Source: Methanoregulaceae archaeon
GTDB taxonomy: Archaea > Halobacteriota > Methanomicrobia > Methanomicrobiales > Methanospirillaceae
Direction of reading: 5' to 3'
Length of the DNA stretch: 7,581 nucleotides
Assembly (NCBI GenBank): GCA_013331215.1
Contig: DUGU01000234.1
Location: forward strand, 1-7,581
Shown: positions 1 through 7,581 of the stretch, one piece after another
Position numbering within the stretch: position 1 is the first letter of the stretch
How the letters are laid out: each line of letters starts with the position of its first letter
Position numbers and translations under genes: made by a program
Notes under the pieces: generated by a model
Databases searched by the model: none
The model's input: only the letters and a program-made list of their open reading frames with translations
Told to the model about the DNA's origin: nothing

Positions 1-55
1 CGAGCTGCTGGTGGATCTCGATCCCCGAGACGAGCCCGATCGCATTATAGTCCAT
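1..55 (-). CDS. gatE: Glu-tRNA(Gln) amidotransferase subunit E, N-terminal fragment
   Basis: Only the first 18 codons are in the window; the gene continues past position 1. The visible residues are MDYNAIGLVSGIEIHQQL. The GxEIHQQL core is the conserved start of GatB/GatE proteins, and a short MDY leader is typical of GatE. GatE activates the Glu carried on Glu-tRNA(Gln) by phosphorylation and passes it to ammonia released by GatD, giving Gln-tRNA(Gln) in the cytoplasm. The ATG (complement of 53-55) lies 11 nt inside the end of gatD in another frame. A strong Shine-Dalgarno GGGAGG (complement of 63-68), 7 nt upstream, fixes the start. The overlap and the partner gene next door suggest coupled translation of the two subunits in equal amounts. 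The family call is secure for so short a fragment because motif, spacing and neighbour agree. Confidence 0.9.
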   Translation of the reverse strand, partial: MDYNAIGLVSGIEIHQQL

Positions 56-1280
56 GGGGCGTCCTCCCGAGGACCTCGCCGGCCATGTCCGTCTGCATCA
101 TCGACGCGACCTCGTCGGGGTCGCGCGTGCGGCCGAGCACGCACATCATCTTCACGAGCGCGACCTCGGGGAGCATGGTCGCTCCCTCGATCACGCCGCA
201 GGCGAGGAGGTCGCGGCCCGTGTCGTAGACGCGATCGCAGACCCGGCCGTCCAGGCACTGCGAGGTCATCACGACTGCGGTCCCGTTCTCGACCAGGGCC
301 CCCAGCCGCTCGATGCAGGGCGTCGAGACGTGCCCGAGGCCCGTGCCGGCCACGACGAGCCCGGCGTACCCGGCGAACGCGCCGAGCAGGGCCGGGTCCA
401 TGCCGGGGTAGAACTGGACGAGGCCGCAGTTGGGCTCGAGCCGGTCGTCGAGGGCGAGGGGCCGTGAGCCGCGGCGGACCGCGTCCGCGCCGAGCTCGAC
501 CGTCCGCTCGGGGAAGGCGACCGTCCCGAGCGGGGGCGAGCCGACGGAGCGGAACGCGTCGCGCCGCGAGGTGTGGAGTTTGCGGACGCGGGTCGCGCGG
601 TGGATCGCGCACCGGTCGTCCGAGGGGCCCTCGTGCATCACGACCGCGACCTCGCCGAGCTCGGAGACGGCGGCCGATGCCGCGCAGACGCCGTTCATCA
701 CGTTGTCCGAGGACGGGCGGTCGGCCGAGCGCTGCGAGCCCACGAAGACGACCGGGACCGGGGTCGAGAGCATGAACGCGAGCACCGCGGCCGAGTACGA
801 CATGGTGTCCGTGCCGTGCGTGACGATCACGCCGGCCGCGCCGTCGGCGATCGCGCCGTGGACGGCGCGGGCGAGCTCCTGCCAGAGGGCCGGGGTCATG
901 TTCTCGGAGAGGATAGTCGCGAGGACCTCCGTCCGGTACCGGGCGATCTCGGCGAGGCCGGGGATGGCGCGGAGGATGTCCGCGGCCGTGAACTGGCTGG
1001 TCACGGCCCCGGTCCGGTAGTCGATCCGGGAAGCAATGGTCCCCCCGGTCGAGACGATGGCGAGCTCGGGCAGGTCCGGGTCCTGCGCGGCCTCGACGGC
1101 GGGCGAGGGCGTTGCGGGGACCCGCTCGAGGAAGGAGACCCGTTCCGGGTCGACGCCGATGTTGTACCCGCTGTCGAGCTTGACCACGCGCATCCCGGCG
1201 CGGTCCGTGATGTACGTGCCCGTGAGGTTCGTCGGGCCGACCGTGCAGGCGACGCGGTCGCCGGAGTGGAGGGCGGTCAT
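45..1280 (-). CDS. gatD: Glu-tRNA(Gln) amidotransferase subunit D (asparaginase-like)
   Basis: This 411-residue cytoplasmic protein is the glutaminase half of the archaeal GatDE complex. It releases ammonia from an amide donor, and GatE uses it to convert Glu-tRNA(Gln) to Gln-tRNA(Gln). Residues 1-52 form the small N-terminal beta domain typical of GatD (HSGDRVACTV to PERVSFLERV). A Pro/Ala linker follows, then an L-asparaginase-type domain from about residue 72. Visible active-site elements are STGGTIAS at 77-84 (nucleophile-type Thr81), THGTDT at 154-159 (Thr157, Asp158) and the RKLHTSRRDAF segment with Lys234. The HTSRRDAFRS motif separates GatD from ordinary asparaginases. Length is close to the family norm. 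The ATG overlaps the argH stop as ATGA and has a GGGAGG Shine-Dalgarno (complement of 1288-1293) 7 nt upstream. The end overlaps gatE by 11 nt. All key residues are present. Confidence 0.96.
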   Translation of the reverse strand: MTALHSGDRVACTVGPTNLTGTYITDRAGMRVVKLDSGYNIGVDPERVSFLERVPATPSPAVEAAQDPDLPELAIVSTGGTIASRIDYRTGAVTSQFTAADILRAIPGLAEIARYRTEVLATILSENMTPALWQELARAVHGAIADGAAGVIVTHGTDTMSYSAAVLAFMLSTPVPVVFVGSQRSADRPSSDNVMNGVCAASAAVSELGEVAVVMHEGPSDDRCAIHRATRVRKLHTSRRDAFRSVGSPPLGTVAFPERTVELGADAVRRGSRPLALDDRLEPNCGLVQFYPGMDPALLGAFAGYAGLVVAGTGLGHVSTPCIERLGALVENGTAVVMTSQCLDGRVCDRVYDTGRDLLACGVIEGATMLPEVALVKMMCVLGRTRDPDEVASMMQTDMAGEVLGRTPHGL

Positions 1281-2755
1281 TCGGCCGCCTCCCGGGCCTC
1301 GGCGAGGAGCTCGTCGATCCGGGCCTTCACCCGGGCCTCCTCCCGCTCGACGAAGGCCCGGTCCCGGGCGAGGCGCGAGGCCGCGGACGCGAGCTGGGCC
1401 CCGACCGCGTCCGGCGCCGGGCCGCCCATGACCGTGCGGACGCGGACCGTCACGAGCGGGTCGAGGGCGCGGTCGATCCGGGCCTGGTCGAGGCTGGCCC
1501 CGACGAGCGAGAGCCCGGCCGACGCCTGGGCCGCGGCCTCGAGTCCGGCGAGGTCAAGTTTCCCGTCACGGACGGCGCGGGCGACCACGTGGTGGGCCGT
1601 CCGGAACGGCAGTCCGAACTCTCGTACGAGTGTATCCGCGAGCTCGGTCGCGGTCGAGCCCCCTGCGGCGGCCTCTTCGGCCATCCGCCCGGTCCGGAAA
1701 CGCGCCGTCCCGATCGCGCCGGCCAGGACGCGGATAGACCGCCGCGTCTCCTCGATGCCGCGCCAGAGCTGGGGGCTGAGCTCCTGCAGGTCGCGGTTGT
1801 ACGCCTGCGGGAGGCCCTTTACAATCCCGAGCGCGGCCGCGAGCGCGCCCGCGACCGTGGACGCCTTGGCCCGGACCAGCTCCATCGTATCGGGGTTCTT
1901 CTTCTGGGGCATGATCGAGGAGGTCGAGCAGTACGCGTCGTCGAGGACGACGAAGCCGACGAGCGGCGAGGACCAGAGCACGAGCTCGTCCGCGAGCCGG
2001 CTCGCGCCGGCCATCAGGACGGCTGCGGCCGAGAGCGCCTCGAGGGCGAAGTCCCGGCCCGAGACCGCGTCCATGGAGTTCTCGAGGACCCCGGAGAAGC
2101 CGAGCCGGCTCGCGGTCCATTCCCGGTCGAGCGGGTACCCGGTCGAGGCGAACGCAGCCGATCCCAGGGGCGACCGGTTCGTGCGGGCGTACGCGTCGAG
2201 GAGGCGGGCCGTGTCGCGTTCGAAGGCGGCCGCGTACGCGAGCAGGTGGTGGGCGAGCGTGGTCGGCTGCGCCGGCTGGAGGTGGGTGAAGCCTGGCATG
2301 ACCGTCTCGACGTGCGCGGACGCGGTCCCGGCGAGGACGCGCCGGAGCTCGCAGACCTCGCCGGCGAGGGCGAGCAGCTCGTCGCGGAGGCGGAGGCGCA
2401 GGCAGGTCGCGACTTCATCGTTCCGCGAGCGCCCGACGTGGAGCCGGCCGCCGGCCTCCTCGCCGACCATGGCCGTGAGGTGGGCCTCGATCCCGGCGTG
2501 GACGTCCTCGTACGCGGGGTCGTAGACCGACGCGGGCAGGCCGTCGTCGCGGAGGGCGAGGAGGCCGCCGAGGAGGGTCCGGACATGCGCCGGCTCGACG
2601 ATCCCCTGCCGGCCGAGCATCAGTACGTGCGCGAGGTCCACCAGGAGGTCCGCCTCGCCGATGAAACGGTCCGCCCCGGCCGACGACAGGATCCACGCCA
2701 CGTCACCGGTCCGCTCTCCCTCGAGGCGCCCGCCCCGCACCACATCCCGTACCAT
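1277..2755 (-). CDS. argH: Argininosuccinate lyase
   Basis: This 492-residue cytoplasmic enzyme splits argininosuccinate into arginine and fumarate, the last step of arginine synthesis. It belongs to the fumarase/aspartase superfamily and works as a tetramer. Visible motifs in order are the RGGRL start, VGRSRNDEVAT (107-117), GFTHLQPAQPTT with His158 (155-166), SPLGSAAF (195-202), and the superfamily signature SSIMPQKKNPD at 279-289 with the catalytic-loop serine near Ser280. Family proteins usually read GSS in the signature; here it is TSS. The C-terminal region extends to an Arg/Glu-rich helix. I chose the ATG at the complement of 2753-2755 because homologues begin just before the RGGRL motif. 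The frame stays open to an upstream ATG (complement of 2830) that would add 25 residues without recognisable homology. The Shine-Dalgarno at the chosen start is weak (AGGGA). This is the first gene of the argH-gatD-gatE block and its stop overlaps gatD. Confidence 0.95.
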   Translation of the reverse strand: MVRDVVRGGRLEGERTGDVAWILSSAGADRFIGEADLLVDLAHVLMLGRQGIVEPAHVRTLLGGLLALRDDGLPASVYDPAYEDVHAGIEAHLTAMVGEEAGGRLHVGRSRNDEVATCLRLRLRDELLALAGEVCELRRVLAGTASAHVETVMPGFTHLQPAQPTTLAHHLLAYAAAFERDTARLLDAYARTNRSPLGSAAFASTGYPLDREWTASRLGFSGVLENSMDAVSGRDFALEALSAAAVLMAGASRLADELVLWSSPLVGFVVLDDAYCSTSSIMPQKKNPDTMELVRAKASTVAGALAAALGIVKGLPQAYNRDLQELSPQLWRGIEETRRSIRVLAGAIGTARFRTGRMAEEAAAGGSTATELADTLVREFGLPFRTAHHVVARAVRDGKLDLAGLEAAAQASAGLSLVGASLDQARIDRALDPLVTVRVRTVMGGPAPDAVGAQLASAASRLARDRAFVEREEARVKARIDELLAEAREAAE

Positions 2756-2918
2756 GCCGTTCCCTACTAGCTCGGCGCCGGGCGACATGAGGGTGTCGGC
2801 GGAGATCGGCGGACCGGCATCGCGATGCATGCGGCCGCGGCCGGGACCGTATCGTCATGGTTGGACAGACGAGGGGATTTGAGAGTACAGAAGTTGAAAA
2901 AATCGGGGTGAAAGTTAC

Positions 2919-2932
2919 CTCATAATAGAATT
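2919..2932 (-). promoter_or_regulatory. Possible TATA element for argH-gatD-gatE
   Basis: On the minus strand this reads TTCTATTATG within an A/T-rich context preceded by a run of A, the best TATA-like match upstream of argH. A start about 25 nt downstream would give a leader of about 145 nt that contains a T6 run. The match to the archaeal consensus is loose. The symmetric ATATACATAT a little further upstream is an alternative that could serve both directions. Confidence 0.25.
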
Positions 2933-2947
2933 TTTCCGGCCGATAGG

Positions 2948-2960
2948 AATATGTATATCA
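2948..2960 (+). promoter_or_regulatory. TATA box of the ABC transporter operon
   Basis: The sequence AATATGTATATCA contains the TATA-like core TATGTATA at 2950-2957. The archaeal spacing of about 25 nt from the centre of the TATA box to the transcription start puts the start near 2978-2982, a few bases before the ATG at 2985. The messenger would therefore be almost leaderless. This argues against the in-frame ATG at 2967, which would lie upstream of transcription. Confidence 0.6.
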
Positions 2961-2984
2961 TCACGGATGGCACATCGATCGCTC

Positions 2985-4205
2985 ATGAATTCACGAAGAT
3001 TGATGCTCGTGCTGGCCGTCGTGGCCGCCGTGGCCCTCCTCGGCGCCGGCTGCACCACGACCCCGGGCGGGAACCAGACCGCCAACGCCACGGTCGGCGT
3101 CCTGTACAGCCAGGGCGTCGGCCCCATGCCGAACCTGCTCGCGACCAAGCAGATCGACGGCTACATCGCCTGGCAGCCGTTCGTCTCGATCGCGACCGAG
3201 TCGCGGATCGCCCAGCTCGTCGAGCCGTCGCAGGACCTGCCGCCCGCAGGGGAGTGGATCAACCACCCGTGCTGCGTGCTCTCGACCCGCGAGGACCTCC
3301 TCGCCACGAACCCCCAGTTCGTCAACTCGATCTCGGCCGTCACTATGCTCGGCAGCAAGTACATCGCCGACCACCCCAACGAGTCCGCGGACATCCTCGC
3401 CGACTGGTTCGTGGGCCGCTCCAACTTCACCTACGGCAATGTCTCCGTCGGCTCGGTCGACGTGATGGAGGACGCGATCGACACCGTCCGGTACACGAAC
3501 GAGCCGACCGCCGGCTGGGTCAACGGCACCAAGGACTTCGTGGCCGCGCAGAAGGCCCTCGGGCTGATCACGGGCCGGCTCGCGAACGCGACCCCCGCCC
3601 AGATGGACGCGATCATCTTCGACTTCGGGCCGTACCAGGCGGCGTCGCAGCAGGTCGTCTCCAGGCAGTTCGTGACACCGGCGAAGGCCTCGGGCCCGAT
3701 CACGCTCGGGTACCTCAAGGCCGACATGCACTCGGCCGCGCTCCTCATCGCGATCAAGAAGTCGCAGTACATGAAGGACACCTATGGGATCGCCCTCGTG
3801 CCGCGGGACGCGACGAAGTCCGCGCCCGACGTCTGCGACCTGGTCGTGAACGGCCAGACCGTGGCCGAGGTTCACCTTATCGCCGCGAACGCGGGCCCCG
3901 AGCTGATGCAGCTCGCCGCGACGAACAGCGTCCAGATGACCTTCGCGGGCGTGCCCCCGGCGATGGCGGCGATCGACAAGGGAACCCCTATTAAGGTCCT
4001 TCATCCCATCAATAACGAGGGCTCGGGCCTTGTCGCGACCGCCGGTTCGCCGGCGACGGACTGGGCGACCTTCACCGCGTGGGCGAAGACCCGTTCGGCC
4101 GAAGGGAAGCCCCTGAAGATCGCGGCCCCGTCCAAGGGCTCGATCCAGGACGTGATGCTCCGCTTCGCCCTCAAGGACGCGGGCTTCACGGTCACCGAAG
4201 GATAA
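2985..4205 (+). CDS. ABC substrate-binding lipoprotein, NitT/TauT (NMT1/SsuA-like), domain order permuted
   Basis: This 406-residue protein should capture a solute outside the cell and deliver it to the permease encoded next. Residues 1-22 are a lipoprotein signal peptide (MNSRRL, a hydrophobic stretch, then LLGAGC with Cys23 as the lipid-anchored residue), followed by a Thr/Gly/Asn linker. Residues about 36-233 match what is normally the C-terminal half of SsuA/NMT1-type proteins: IDGYIAWQPF (57-66), HPCC (94-97), REDLLATNP (102-110) and NESADILADWF (132-142). Residues about 238-404 match the usual N-terminal half: ITLGYLKAD (239-247), FAGVPPAMAAIDKG (320-333), NNEGSGLV (343-350) and APSKGSIQDVMLRFAL (381-396). 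The stop follows where the other half would normally begin. The family call is firm; the permuted order is my comparison with remembered family order. The substrate is unknown (sulfonate, nitrate, taurine or a pyrimidine are family options). The ATG at 2985 is preferred over 2967 from TATA spacing and signal-peptide shape. Confidence 0.88.
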   Translation: MNSRRLMLVLAVVAAVALLGAGCTTTPGGNQTANATVGVLYSQGVGPMPNLLATKQIDGYIAWQPFVSIATESRIAQLVEPSQDLPPAGEWINHPCCVLSTREDLLATNPQFVNSISAVTMLGSKYIADHPNESADILADWFVGRSNFTYGNVSVGSVDVMEDAIDTVRYTNEPTAGWVNGTKDFVAAQKALGLITGRLANATPAQMDAIIFDFGPYQAASQQVVSRQFVTPAKASGPITLGYLKADMHSAALLIAIKKSQYMKDTYGIALVPRDATKSAPDVCDLVVNGQTVAEVHLIAANAGPELMQLAATNSVQMTFAGVPPAMAAIDKGTPIKVLHPINNEGSGLVATAGSPATDWATFTAWAKTRSAEGKPLKIAAPSKGSIQDVMLRFALKDAGFTVTEG

Positions 4206-4214
4206 GGGAGGAGA

Positions 4215-5015
4215 ATGCCAGGGATCGCCCGGAATCGTCGGAACCACGGAGTCGCCCGGAGGCTCCGCTGGGCGGTCCTCCCCGTCCTCTTTCTCGTCGC
4301 CTGGGAGCTCGCGGCGGTCCTGATCAACAACCCGTTCGTCCTGCCGACCCTCGAGTCCGTCGCGGCCGTGCTCGCCACGCCCTTCGCCTCGATCCTCGGC
4401 ACGGGCTCGCTCCTGCAGAACGCGGCCGTCTCGCTCGAACGGGTCCTGATCGGTTTCTTCGTCGGCGCGGCCCTGGCGATCCCGCTCGGGATCGCGATGG
4501 GCCGCTGGCGGCTCGTCGAGGAGCTCGTGGACCCGATGGTCCAGCTCTTCCGCCCCGTCCCGCCGCTCGCCTGGGTCCCGCTCGCCCTCGCCTGGTTCCG
4601 GATCGGCCTGACCTCGATGGTCTTCATCATCGCGCTCGGCGCCTTCTTCCCGGTCCTGCTCAACACCCTCGACGGCGTCCGGTCGGTCAAGCGGACCTGG
4701 GTCGAGGCCGCCATGACCCTCGGCGCGACCGAGCGGCAGCTGCTGGCGCGGGTGATCCTCCCCGGCGCGCTCCCGACGATCTGGACGGGAATGCGTGTCG
4801 GGTTCGGGATCGCCTGGATGTGCGTGGTCGCGGCAGAGATGATGCCGGGCACGAACTCCGGCCTCGGGTACCTGATCCTCTACTCGTACAACTTCAGCCA
4901 GGTCCAGGTGATCGTCGCGGGCATGATCGTGATCGGGATCATCGGGCTCGGGATCGACCTCGCGCTCCGCCAGGTCGAGCTGCGCCGCTTCAGCTGGAGG
5001 GAGCTCGAACGATGA
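4215..5015 (+). CDS. ABC transporter permease, NitT/TauT family
   Basis: This 266-residue membrane protein forms the channel of the importer, probably as a homodimer because only one permease gene is present. Hydrophobic segments are visible near residues 19-37, 76-96, 115-127, 133-150, 190-208 and 232-252, giving about six membrane passes. The cytoplasmic EAA loop that docks on the ATPase is EAAMTLGATERQLLARVILP (164-183), close to the SsuC/TauC pattern. The RPVPPLAWVPLALAWF segment (113-128) is also typical of the family, and the length is normal. The start has a strong Shine-Dalgarno (GGGAGGAG, 4206-4213) and lies 9 nt after the binding-protein stop. The stop overlaps the ATPase start as ATGA. 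The solute cannot be read from the permease. Confidence 0.94.
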   Translation: MPGIARNRRNHGVARRLRWAVLPVLFLVAWELAAVLINNPFVLPTLESVAAVLATPFASILGTGSLLQNAAVSLERVLIGFFVGAALAIPLGIAMGRWRLVEELVDPMVQLFRPVPPLAWVPLALAWFRIGLTSMVFIIALGAFFPVLLNTLDGVRSVKRTWVEAAMTLGATERQLLARVILPGALPTIWTGMRVGFGIAWMCVVAAEMMPGTNSGLGYLILYSYNFSQVQVIVAGMIVIGIIGLGIDLALRQVELRRFSWRELER

Positions 5016-5770
5016 AACTCGAAGTCGACCACGTCTCGAAACGGTTTGCCGTGGACCAGGGCGAGGGCACCGAGGCCCTCCGCGACGTCTCGCTCTCCGT
5101 CGCCGAGGGGGAGTTCGTCTGCCTCCTCGGCCCGTCGGGGTGCGGCAAGACCACGCTGCTGCGGATCATCGCCGGGCTCGAGACCCCGAGCGAGGGCGAG
5201 GTGCGCGTCGACGGCGTCCCCGTAACCGGGCCGACACCGCGCCTCGGCATGATCTTCCAGGACTACTCGCTCTATCCCTGGCGGCGCGTCATCGACAACA
5301 TCGCTTTCGGCCTGGAGCTCGCCGGCGTCGGAAAGGAGGAGCGCCTGGCACGGGCCCGCGAGTACCTCGAGCTCGTCGGCCTCGACGGCTTCGCCGACTC
5401 GTTCCCGTACGAGCTCTCGGGCGGGATGCGGCAGCGGGTCGCGGTCGCCCGGGCGCTCGCGACGGACCCGGCCGTGGTGCTGATGGACGAGCCCTTCGGG
5501 GCGCTCGACGCCCAGACGCGGAACGCGATGCAGCGCGAGCTCCTGGAGATCTGGACCAAGACGAAGAAGACCGTGCTCTTCGTCACCCACTCGGTCGACG
5601 AGGCCGTCTTCCTCGCCGACCGGATCGTGGTGCTCACGGCGCGCCCGGGCCAGATCCGCGAGGTCGTCGAGGTCCGCGAGCCGCGCCCGCGGGACCGCAC
5701 CTGCGAGGAGTGCGCCGCGATTCGGCGGCACGTCCTCGGCCTGATCGACGAAGGCCGGCAGGTCCGGTGA
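5012..5770 (+). CDS. ABC transporter ATP-binding protein, NitT/TauT family
   Basis: This 252-residue cytoplasmic ATPase powers the importer. All ABC motifs are present: Walker [10 protein letters not shown] (40-48), Q-loop Gln83 in [10 protein letters not shown], signature LSGGMRQR (135-142), Walker [13 protein letters not shown] (155-166) with Glu160, and switch His193 in VTHSVDEA. The LSGGM form of the signature and the YSLYPW Q-loop are common in SsuB/TauB-type ATPases. The C-terminal region ends with a short tail bearing a CEEC pair (231-234), with no obvious extra regulatory domain. The start overlaps the permease stop (ATGA) and has a Shine-Dalgarno GGAGGGAG (4996-5003) 8 nt upstream, so translation is probably coupled. 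It is the last gene of the transporter operon; the next gene has its own promoter. Confidence 0.95.
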
Positions 5771-5777
5771 AGCAAGG

Positions 5778-5807
5778 TTTAATACCCTTGGTCTCGATTT
5801 TATAAAG
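5778..5807 (+). promoter_or_regulatory. Two candidate TATA boxes for the L10e gene
   Basis: Two archaeal TATA-like elements lie between the ATPase stop and the L10e start: TTTAATAC at 5778-5785 and TTTTATAAAG at 5798-5807. The first would start the transcript near 5806-5808 and keep the Shine-Dalgarno GAGGAG (5821-5826) in the leader. The second is closer to consensus but would start near 5828-5830, downstream of that Shine-Dalgarno. Either gives the gene a promoter independent of the transporter. Confidence 0.55.
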
Positions 5808-5834
5808 CACGGCAGTTTACGAGGAGTTTACGTT

Positions 5835-6350
5835 ATGGTCAGAAAACCCGGCAAGATGTACAGGAACCTTTCAAAGAAGGCATATACGCGTCGCGAATAC
5901 ATGGGAGGCGTTCCGGGCTCCAAGATCGTCCAGTTCGAGATGGGCAATCTCTCAGCCGACTTTTCGGTCGAGATCTCCCTCGAGGTCGAGGAGGCCTGCC
6001 AGATCCGCCACACGGCCCTCGAGGCGGCCCGCATCTCGATCAACAGGAAACTCATGTCGGAGATCGGCCGGCAGAACTTCCACCTGAAGATCCGGACCTT
6101 CCCCCACCACGTCCTCCGCGAGAACAAGCAGGCCACCGGCGCCGGCGCCGACCGTGTCTCGGAAGGGATGCGGCTCGCCTTCGGCAAGGCCGTCGGGACC
6201 GCCGCCCGCGTCGCGCCGAGGCAGAAGATCTTCACGGTCTACACCAACGAGCAGTACATCGACAAGGCGAAAGAGGCCGTGCGCAAGGGAGGGTACAAGC
6301 TCCCGTCCCCGTCGCGGATTGTCGTCGAGCAGAAGGTCCCGGCGGCCTGA
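5835..6350 (+). CDS. rpl10e: Large-subunit ribosomal protein L10e (uL16 family)
   Basis: This 171-residue protein is the archaeal/eukaryotic counterpart of bacterial L16. It sits in the 50S subunit near the peptidyl-transferase centre and the A-site tRNA elbow. The start [10 protein letters not shown], the segment [15 protein letters not shown] (17-31), the core [18 protein letters not shown] (81-98) and [19 protein letters not shown] (100-118) are hallmark L10e sequences. The C-terminal end ([12 protein letters not shown]) is also typical, and the length is normal. A Shine-Dalgarno GAGGAG (5821-5826) lies 8 nt before the ATG. The gene follows the transporter by 64 nt but has its own TATA candidates, and a T6 run after the stop suggests it is transcribed alone. 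Confidence 0.97.
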
Positions 6351-6354
6351 ATAC

Positions 6355-6360
6355 TTTTTT
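6355..6360 (+). terminator. Oligo-T terminator after the L10e gene
   Basis: Six T in a row begin 5 nt after the L10e stop codon, in otherwise GC-rich DNA. Archaeal RNA polymerase commonly stops at T-rich runs without needing a hairpin. No stem of note precedes the run; the GC-rich palindrome at 6378-6391 lies after it. Confidence 0.5.
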
Positions 6361-6377
6361 CCGACCCGTCTCCGCTC

Positions 6378-6391
6378 GTCGCCGCGGCGAC
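6378..6391. repeat. Perfect 14-bp palindrome in the intergenic region
   Basis: GTCGCCGCGGCGAC equals its own reverse complement. It lies 17 bp past the T6 run and about 40 bp before the TATA box of the next gene. It could be a regulator site, but it has no loop, no adjacent T run and is easily formed by chance in GC-rich DNA. I assign no function. Confidence 0.4.
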
Positions 6392-6430
6392 AGACCCGCC
6401 CGCACCGCTGCTTCAACCATTTCTGCGGCA

Positions 6431-6440
6431 TCTATATATC
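6431..6440 (+). promoter_or_regulatory. TATA box upstream of the S1-OB-DHH gene
   Basis: TCTATATATC contains TATATAT at 6433-6439, a good archaeal TATA element in a GC-rich surrounding. The expected transcription start is near 6460, giving a leader of about 45 nt before the ATG at 6506. No Shine-Dalgarno is visible directly before that ATG, so the leader may be shorter or start selection may rely on other features. Confidence 0.6.
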
Positions 6441-6505
6441 GGGCCGTCCATATGTGATCCACCGCGCATACGCCGGATACACGACAATACTTCGGATCGA
6501 TCCAT

Positions 6506-7581
6506 ATGAGTCCAGCAAACGTCACCGTCTACCGCCTCAGCCCCGCCTGCGACATCTCGGATGTCGAAGTCGGCACCATCTACGTGGGGCGCGTCCAGGG
6601 GTTCGCCACCTTCGGCACCTTCGTCCAGCTCACCGACCGCCTCAAGGGCCTGGTCCACAAGTCCAACGTCCGGACCAACCACGAGGAGGGCGACGAGATC
6701 CTGGTCCGCGTCAAGCAGATCCGCCCGAACGGCAACATCGACCTCGAGGAGGTCATCCTGCCGTCGTACGAGGAGCAAAACGTGACCAAGAAGGTCACGA
6801 CGACCCGGCTCGTCGAGCTCGGCAGCCGCATCGGCCGGACCGTCACGGTCGTCGGCGAGATCGCCCAGGTCAAACAGACCAGCGGCCCGACCATCTTCAC
6901 GCTCGTCGACGACACCGGGACCGAGAACGCGGCCGCCTTCGTCGAGGCCGGCGTCCGGGCCTACCCCGAGGCGAACCTCGGCGACATCGTCCAGGTCTAC
7001 GGCCAGGCGATGCAGCGCAACTCGCAGGTCCAGATCGAGGTCGGGTCGCTCACGGTCCTCGCGGGCCCGGAGGCAGACGAGGTCAAAGCCCGGATCGAGG
7101 AGGCCCTCGAGCGCCGGGCGGAGCCCGCCGAGATCCCGCTGCTGGTCGAGAGCGACGTGATGACCCTGCTCCGGCCGCAGATGCGCGAGGTCGCGAAGGC
7201 GATCCGGAAGGCGGTCTTCGTCTCGCAGCCGATCCTTCTCCGCCACCACGCCGACGCGGACGGCATCTGCTCGGCCGTCGCGATCGAGCAGGCCGTGGTC
7301 TCCCTGATCCGCGAGTCCGGCGGGGACTTCGACGCCGACTACTTCCTCTTCAAGCGCGCACCGTCCAAGGCCCCCTTCTACGAGATCGAGGACATCACCC
7401 GCGACCTCGACTTCGCGACCAAGGATCTGGCCCGGTACGGCCAGAAGATGCCGCTCGTGCTCCTCACCGATAATGGTTCAACAGAGGAGGACGAACCGGC
7501 ATACAAGATTGCAAGCGTGTACGACATCCCGTTCGTGGTGATAGACCACCACCACCCGGATGCAACCATCGACAAGTACCT
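6506..7581 (+). CDS. Archaeal S1-OB-DHH phosphoesterase (RecJ-like), 3' end outside window
   Basis: The first 358 codons are visible; the frame is open at the window end. Residues about 20-84 form an S1 RNA-binding domain (VGTIYVGRVQGFATFGTFVQL, then KGLVHKSNV). Residues about 105-185 look like an OB-fold nucleic-acid-binding domain (TVTVVGEIAQVK, then TIFTLVDDTG). A charged helix follows, and from about 240 a DHH phosphoesterase domain begins: RHHADADG (246-253), LLTDNGS (319-325) with Asp322, and DHHHPD (347-352), the metal-binding DHH motif. The order fits archaeal RecJ-like proteins (the COG1107 group, by memory), which act on DNA or RNA ends. The rest of DHH and the DHHA1 part lie beyond the window. 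The ATG at 6506 is fixed because an in-frame stop lies at 6455-6457 and no other ATG intervenes. Some relatives carry an N-terminal DnaJ-type zinc finger, which is absent here. Confidence 0.85.
   Translation, partial: MSPANVTVYRLSPACDISDVEVGTIYVGRVQGFATFGTFVQLTDRLKGLVHKSNVRTNHEEGDEILVRVKQIRPNGNIDLEEVILPSYEEQNVTKKVTTTRLVELGSRIGRTVTVVGEIAQVKQTSGPTIFTLVDDTGTENAAAFVEAGVRAYPEANLGDIVQVYGQAMQRNSQVQIEVGSLTVLAGPEADEVKARIEEALERRAEPAEIPLLVESDVMTLLRPQMREVAKAIRKAVFVSQPILLRHHADADGICSAVAIEQAVVSLIRESGGDFDADYFLFKRAPSKAPFYEIEDITRDLDFATKDLARYGQKMPLVLLTDNGSTEEDEPAYKIASVYDIPFVVIDHHHPDATIDKY

Follow-up and report, generated by a model that had tools for sequence, protein, structure and literature searches.

Swapped halves in an NMT1/SsuA-type substrate-binding protein of a Methanoregulaceae archaeon and the cyclic orders of its relatives

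Natural circular permutation of binding proteins is known already, and the described cases provide the background for the gene considered here, which encodes a substrate-binding protein of the NMT1/SsuA type next to the genes of an ATP-binding cassette (ABC) importer on a 7,581-nucleotide stretch, hereafter the window, from a Methanoregulaceae archaeon (contig DUGU01000234.1, positions 1 to 7,581). The closest described system is TpMglB-2 (Tp0684) of Treponema pallidum, a natural circular permutant assigned to ‘Type Ic / Cluster Bc’ (PMC4990184). Like the window protein as predicted below, it is a lipid-anchored permuted substrate-binding protein, and its authors also suggest a link to anchoring; unlike the window protein, it is an MglB-like sugar receptor of type I with one described permuted topology, whereas the family of the window protein comprises three permuted orders and a fused double. 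A permutation among binding proteins of a related two-lobed fold was also reported for the set formed by OpuAC, ProX, molybdate-binding proteins and CysB (PMC2395249). These proteins are, however, very distant (<24% identity) and belong to another profile family, and serial cuts or a double form are not described in the available portions of the report. Beyond receptors, permutation by duplication with intermediates is documented for DNA methyltransferases, and swaposin displays the order 3-4-1-2 with respect to saposin (excerpts of PMC3320104), but these are enzymes and lipid-binding peptides, not transport receptors. The SsuA, TauA, NrtA and Sao-type receptors belong to the profile families found for the window protein, and their permeases and ATPases are of the same type; these receptors have the canonical order, in contrast to the window protein, which scores far below the SsuA_fam and SaoX cut-offs. 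No report of a permuted NMT1/SsuA-type protein was found in the open-licence literature, a scope outside which most subscription papers lie, and the part of PMC9732360 available here holds nothing bearing on receptor permutation. What is new is therefore the NMT1/SsuA-type case, with an unusually complete series of forms. It is concluded with high confidence that the window gene encodes an NMT1/SsuA-type binding protein with swapped halves, likely the lipid-anchored receptor of the adjacent ABC importer, the order of which arose most likely by duplication.

Swapped halves of the window protein

Chain order was read with four motif profiles numbered as in canonical proteins, namely motif 1 (GYL...PPAI...N), motif 2 (VNxEGS), motif 3 (GK...PGxxSIQ) and motif 4 (ID...WEP...HPCC). 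The window protein contains each block once, in swapped order (4-1-2-3), with a short linker between the old ends. Its motifs are IDGYIAWQPF at residues 57-66, ITLGYL from residue 239, VPPAMAAIDKG at residues 323-333 and KGSIQDVML from residue 384, and its C-terminal end is GFTVTEG. Re-reading of the open reading frame at 2985 returned the frame, the residue positions and the motif order given in the original prediction, which had proposed a circular permutation; only its last residue, placed at 404, needs correction, the actual length being 406 amino acids. The features of the gene are as follows.

2985..4205, plus strand: permuted binding-protein gene (open reading frame with an NMT1_2 match; 406 amino acids, stop codon ending at 4205)
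2985..3053, plus strand: putative signal peptide with lipobox, residues 1-23, Cys at 23 (read from the sequence)
3090..3671, plus strand: block that is C-terminal in canonical proteins, residues 36-229 (NMT1_2 profile 164-248; motif 4 with IDGYIAWQPF and HPCC, then helices)
3264..3275, plus strand: HPCC motif, residues 94-97, kept in permuted relatives
3672..3698, plus strand: linker VTPAKASGP, residues 230-238, from the old C-terminus to the old N-terminus (rotation scan peak at or beside it)
3699..4202, plus strand: block that is N-terminal in canonical proteins, residues 239-406, with motifs 1, 2 and 3 (NMT1_2 profile 9-150)

The whole protein matches Pfam NMT1_2 (PF13379) with 78.6 bits for a cut-off of 24.7, in two stretches. 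Aligned separately, the C-terminal half covers profile positions 9-150 (E 8.9e-13) and the N-terminal half positions 164-248 (E 3.8e-8), so that the two matches come in reversed order, without overlap, and each part of the profile is used once; this complementary single coverage rules out two full-length domains. Rotation at the linker converts the match into one stretch, 9-247, of 87 bits. The native protein thus fails collinearity with the profile, which makes it a permuted relative and not an ordinary member. Similarly, the NCBIfam model SsuA_fam (TIGR01728) gives 58.6 bits in two stretches for the native and 67.3 bits in one stretch for the rotated protein, its cut-off of 163.5 not being reached, while SaoX (NF040735) gives 30.9 and 31.3 bits, respectively, for a cut-off of 300. 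To avoid a cut chosen by eye, all 373 in silico rotations were scored against a profile built only from 18 relatives of canonical order. The best single domain of the native protein scored 73.7 bits, the best rotations 139.3-139.4 bits (median 120.6), and the five best listed rotations start at residues 224, 225, 230, 231 and 244, within or next to the linker. Comparable gains were found for three relatives, from 95.6 to 198.6 bits (P0246, an Archaeoglobus protein of 335 amino acids), 78.5 to 158.1 bits (P0358) and 88.2 to 173.2 bits (P0176); for two canonical proteins the gain did not exceed 0.5 bits, and since both sit in the scoring profile, only this absence of gain is informative. The proposed permutation is supported by these results, including the separate alignment of the halves that had been suggested as a check, and none of the three outcomes named beforehand as refuting it (a collinear hit, two full domains, an assembly join) occurred.

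NMT1/SsuA-type receptors are taken here to be type II binding proteins; no type I sugar-binding family was listed for the window protein, the profile families found being NMT1_2, NMT1 and SsuA_fam. A bilobed flytrap fold is predicted for this protein, the AlphaFold2 model of which is confident (predicted local distance difference test, pLDDT, 91.9; predicted template modelling score, pTM, 0.86). Structure searches, headed by OpuAC, compare in chain order only and added little, as did a model of the C-terminal half, and a sequence search of the PDB returned nothing for the native and nothing relevant for the rotated protein. When the family profile was compared with solved structures (22 at E ≤1, mostly binding proteins or CmpC/NrtC-like chains), every best stretch spanned only one of the two blocks. 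By homology, the new termini would fall in lobe II, between one of its helices and a strand, so that the lipid anchor would be attached to this lobe and not to lobe I. Export and lipid anchoring are predicted from the N-terminal sequence, G22 and C23 of the lipobox being invariant in all 77 aligned relatives. The start methionine is common to close relatives.

Distribution of the order and the accompanying operon

Searches with the window protein, a Thermoplasmata relative and a mixed alignment retrieved 403, 502 and 1029 proteins, respectively, of which 120 listed in each case were examined; the counts of proteins below refer to these listed matches. The set of 365 proteins (360 from databases, the window protein and four translated loci) displays the permuted order throughout (245/245 and 120/120). 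Finer motif profiles read 4-1-2-3 in 363 of them, the other two, reading 1-2-3 and 4-1, being taken to be incomplete. Sources include Methanoregula, Archaeoglobus, Thermoplasmata, Methermicoccaceae, Anaerolineae, Desulfitibacter, Metallumcola and Clostridia, so the family reaches bacteria (Bacillota, Anaerolineae), beyond methanogens, Archaeoglobus and Thermoplasmata. The suggestion in the original prediction that other Methanomicrobiales have similar proteins is right; the reach into bacteria, the further cut points and the fused double go beyond that prediction. At the genome level, the profile is matched in some way in 234 of the 294 genomes of the window’s phylum. A permuted protein is present in 50/50 loci from 48 genomes of this phylum (the window’s included), and 20 further loci comprise 18 canonical proteins, one partial (L105) and one odd (L092). 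Because the order is the same in all proteins examined and in independent genomes, among them complete chromosome records (L023 from Methanoregula, and L038), an assembly join is excluded.

The HPCC motif occurs in 357 of 361 permuted proteins; the 20 canonical-type loci (L092 included) have HPCC or HACC in 18 cases and HPCD in two. Since the site is kept in both forms, the permutation left it unchanged. A lipobox-like pattern within the first 60 residues was found in 76/121 proteins of the window query, 84/120 of the mixed query and 1/120 of the Thermoplasmata query, the last set therefore seeming to keep an uncleaved N-terminal helix.

Permease and ATPase genes lie directly downstream of the window gene.

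4215..5015, plus strand: ABC permease (BPD_transp_1, E 2.2e-25; nearest NCBIfam models SaoP, TauC and SsuC, all below cut-off)
5012..5770, plus strand: ABC ATPase (ABC_tran, E 2.3e-34; nearest NCBIfam models SaoA and taurine ATPase, below cut-off)

Permuted proteins in Methanomicrobiales, Methanosaeta, Thermoplasmata and most Archaeoglobi-type loci are accompanied by this set as well; in 11 Thermoplasmata loci examined, the permease was found in all and the ATPase in 10. A divergent helix-turn-helix regulator of about 180 amino acids flanks 48 of 79 loci, with permuted as well as canonical proteins (L091-L093 among them), and was not found in the window. The shared operon set and the regulator beside both orders suggest that the importers served by permuted and by canonical proteins are related. 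As for the ligand, the kinship of permease and ATPase with Sao-, Tau- and Ssu-type models prompts the guess, by analogy, that it may be a small sulfur-containing or anionic solute; for Sao selenoproteins, a review predicts metal links (excerpts of PMC13188914).

Several side observations concern these loci. Examples of the divergent regulator (HTH_3) are found in L010 (5270-5842, minus strand, with a weak PrpR_N-like match), L040 (5214-5798, minus strand) and L091 (1168-1710, minus strand). A canonical-looking, apparently unexported relative of the binding protein immediately precedes the permuted gene in L085 (1055-1933). In the window’s own genome, a further fragment (contig C139, bases 2-178) aligns with the C-terminus of the permuted family and therefore probably represents a second copy. 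The flanks of the window (48-2830, minus strand, and 5835-6350, plus strand) are housekeeping-like, with a GatD-like asparaginase, argininosuccinate lyase and ribosomal protein L16/L10e. An RNA family search yielded nothing above threshold (one IRES_mnt match, 19.5 bits versus 100).

Other cyclic orders, fused doubles and trees

All four cyclic orders of the motifs occur: the canonical 1-2-3-4, 4-1-2-3 as in the window, 2-3-4-1 in a clade of Thermoplasmatota, and 3-4-1-2 in one genome. The last form (L092, 1689-2774) is an intact frame of 361 amino acids, the parts of which are 70% and 84% identical to the canonical protein L093 of the same genus group; judged by eye, the linker of L092 is similar to the segment that follows the lipobox in L093. 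This form was found in one of four genomes examined of its taxonomic order and rests on one bin of 220 contigs.

The profile of the third form is matched in 61 of 389 genomes in the phylum of the Thermoplasmata relative. Among 30 loci of that phylum, 24 read 2-3-4-1, two 3-4-1, two are double and two read 4-1-2-3; the 28 loci with the third form, doubles included, stem from 28 genomes. Motif 2 scores are low in these proteins (6-19 bits). In L135, L139 and L141, Pfam profile positions 67/75-241/243 fall in the first 209 residues; the profile start was reported at the C-terminus for L139 only, weakly, by NMT1.

L143-L156, L158, L160-L169 and L171, Thermoplasmatota: loci of the third order, 2-3-4-1 (motif 2 undetected in L164 and L165)

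The mcrA gene is present in all six tested genomes with the 2-3-4-1 or double form, presumably Methanomassiliicoccales, and in that of L092, presumably Methanocella-like; none was found in the window’s bin (66.5% complete) nor in one Thermoplasmata genome tested.

Two loci from two genomes, L157 (1516-3789, contig of 50,147 bases) and L159 (346-2619, contig of 1,664,211 bases), contain single frames of 757 amino acids with two full copies head to tail, followed by a permease gene.

L176 and L175: the same double genes as L157 and L159, respectively

The motif scan reads 3-4-1-3-4-1, motif 2 falling below threshold, yet RVNTDGSGIY is visible in both copies. Being only 86% (L159) and 72% (L157) identical, the copies are not a stutter. 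NMT1_2 runs collinearly across the joint (residues 330-571 of L159 on profile 22-242, residues 331-572 of L157 on 23-240); the fusion thereby re-creates the canonical order within itself. In the tree, the two copies of each double genome are sisters, and the doubles are therefore separate doublings or homogenised copies. They likely represent the intermediate of permutation by duplication. Three long canonical frames (L173, L174 and L177) considered as further doubles were rejected, each having one motif set. Two of these, L173 (1693-4101, 802 amino acids) and L174 (1815-5324, 1169 amino acids), are canonical binding proteins fused in frame to other long domains.

All sequences were rotated to canonical order before tree building; L126 (no block-A hit), L092 and L105 were dropped before the first tree (75 rows), and five long-branch canonical rows (L085b, L127-L130) between this and the 82-row tree. 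The 2-3-4-1 proteins group in a single clade that branches within the 4-1-2-3 proteins (support 100/98, 5 of 82 rows), a clade also recovered in a thinned tree (95/96, 30 of 70 rows, four double copies included). The distance from motif 3 to motif 4 is 13-17 residues in five of them, compared with a canonical median of 5 (n=20, range 4-15) and 6 in L092, and this long gap is likely the scar of a rejoined first cut; 2-3-4-1 appears to be a second permutation stacked on 4-1-2-3. In the first tree, permuted proteins fall into two well supported groups of 22 and 29 rows, and a single clade is not rejected (approximately unbiased test, p 0.398), nor is it in a permease tree of 55 rows (p 0.396). 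Addition of Thermoplasmatota rows, including L136 (976-2040), a canonical-order protein grouping with permuted Thermoplasmata proteins, leads to rejection of a single permuted clade (61 rows versus 20, p 3.9e-6); the placement of L136 outside the second permuted group is weakly rejected (p 0.031). Thus either 4-1-2-3 had more than one origin or L136 reverted to the canonical order, a result leaning on one sequence. The double form would make such a return easy.

Origin of the permuted order

The 4-1-2-3 order most likely arose via permutation by duplication. The binding-protein gene would have been doubled in tandem and the two copies fused in frame, after which copy one would have lost its front part following the signal peptide, and copy two its back part; doubling, fusion and trimming appear to have run more than once in the family, and this apparent repetition would account for the existence of all four cyclic orders. 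The duplication route is favoured by the double frames, the collinear match across their joint, the nested position of 2-3-4-1, the long gap between motifs 3 and 4, and the occurrence of L092 beside L093. What speaks against it is that the double form was not seen in Methanomicrobiales. Fission and fusion, an accepted alternative route for permutants (excerpts of PMC3320104), would instead have assembled the halves from two binding-protein genes or rejoined one split gene in the other order. It is judged unlikely, since both blocks have the canonical L091 among their top-scoring proteins, and since fused doubles and serial cuts exist within the family; no free half-protein partner was noticed, in the absence of a systematic search.

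Membership of the window protein in the permuted type II set around OpuAC is very improbable: PF04069 was not listed for it at E ≤10 (the HMMER filters drop most weak hits), NMT1_2 is far over its cut-off, and canonical NMT1/SsuA-type relatives exist in the same operon type. An equally slight chance is given to a permuted protein that is no working solute receptor, because the gene is decaying or has another role, in view of the intact frames, the residues invariant across 77 relatives and the conserved operon. An assembly or binning artefact might be feared, as the window comes from a fragmented bin (348 contigs, completeness 66.5) and the 3-4-1-2 form comes from a single bin as well; for the window’s order it is refuted by the 50 loci of 48 genomes, the hundreds of proteins and the complete chromosome records, which leaves it a practically negligible probability, and this refutation does not extend to L092.

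Beyond the origin of a single order, permutation by duplication would fit a family in which the start of the chain has wandered. This broader view, considered probable, holds that four orders exist, each beside its own permease, with one permutation placed atop another and a fused intermediate, from which any order, even the canonical one, can be cut, still present in living methanogens.

Circular permutation is in most cases deduced by comparing two distant proteins, whereas here relatives from the same type of operon differ in order. Databases list the permuted proteins under ordinary receptor names, and a profile search bound to chain order recovers about half of their true score. With an apparently stacked permutation and surviving doubles, a small binding protein allows doubling, fusion and trimming from either end to be built and assayed separately. 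If the chain start has indeed wandered, permutation by duplication would here be caught at every stage in a transport receptor.
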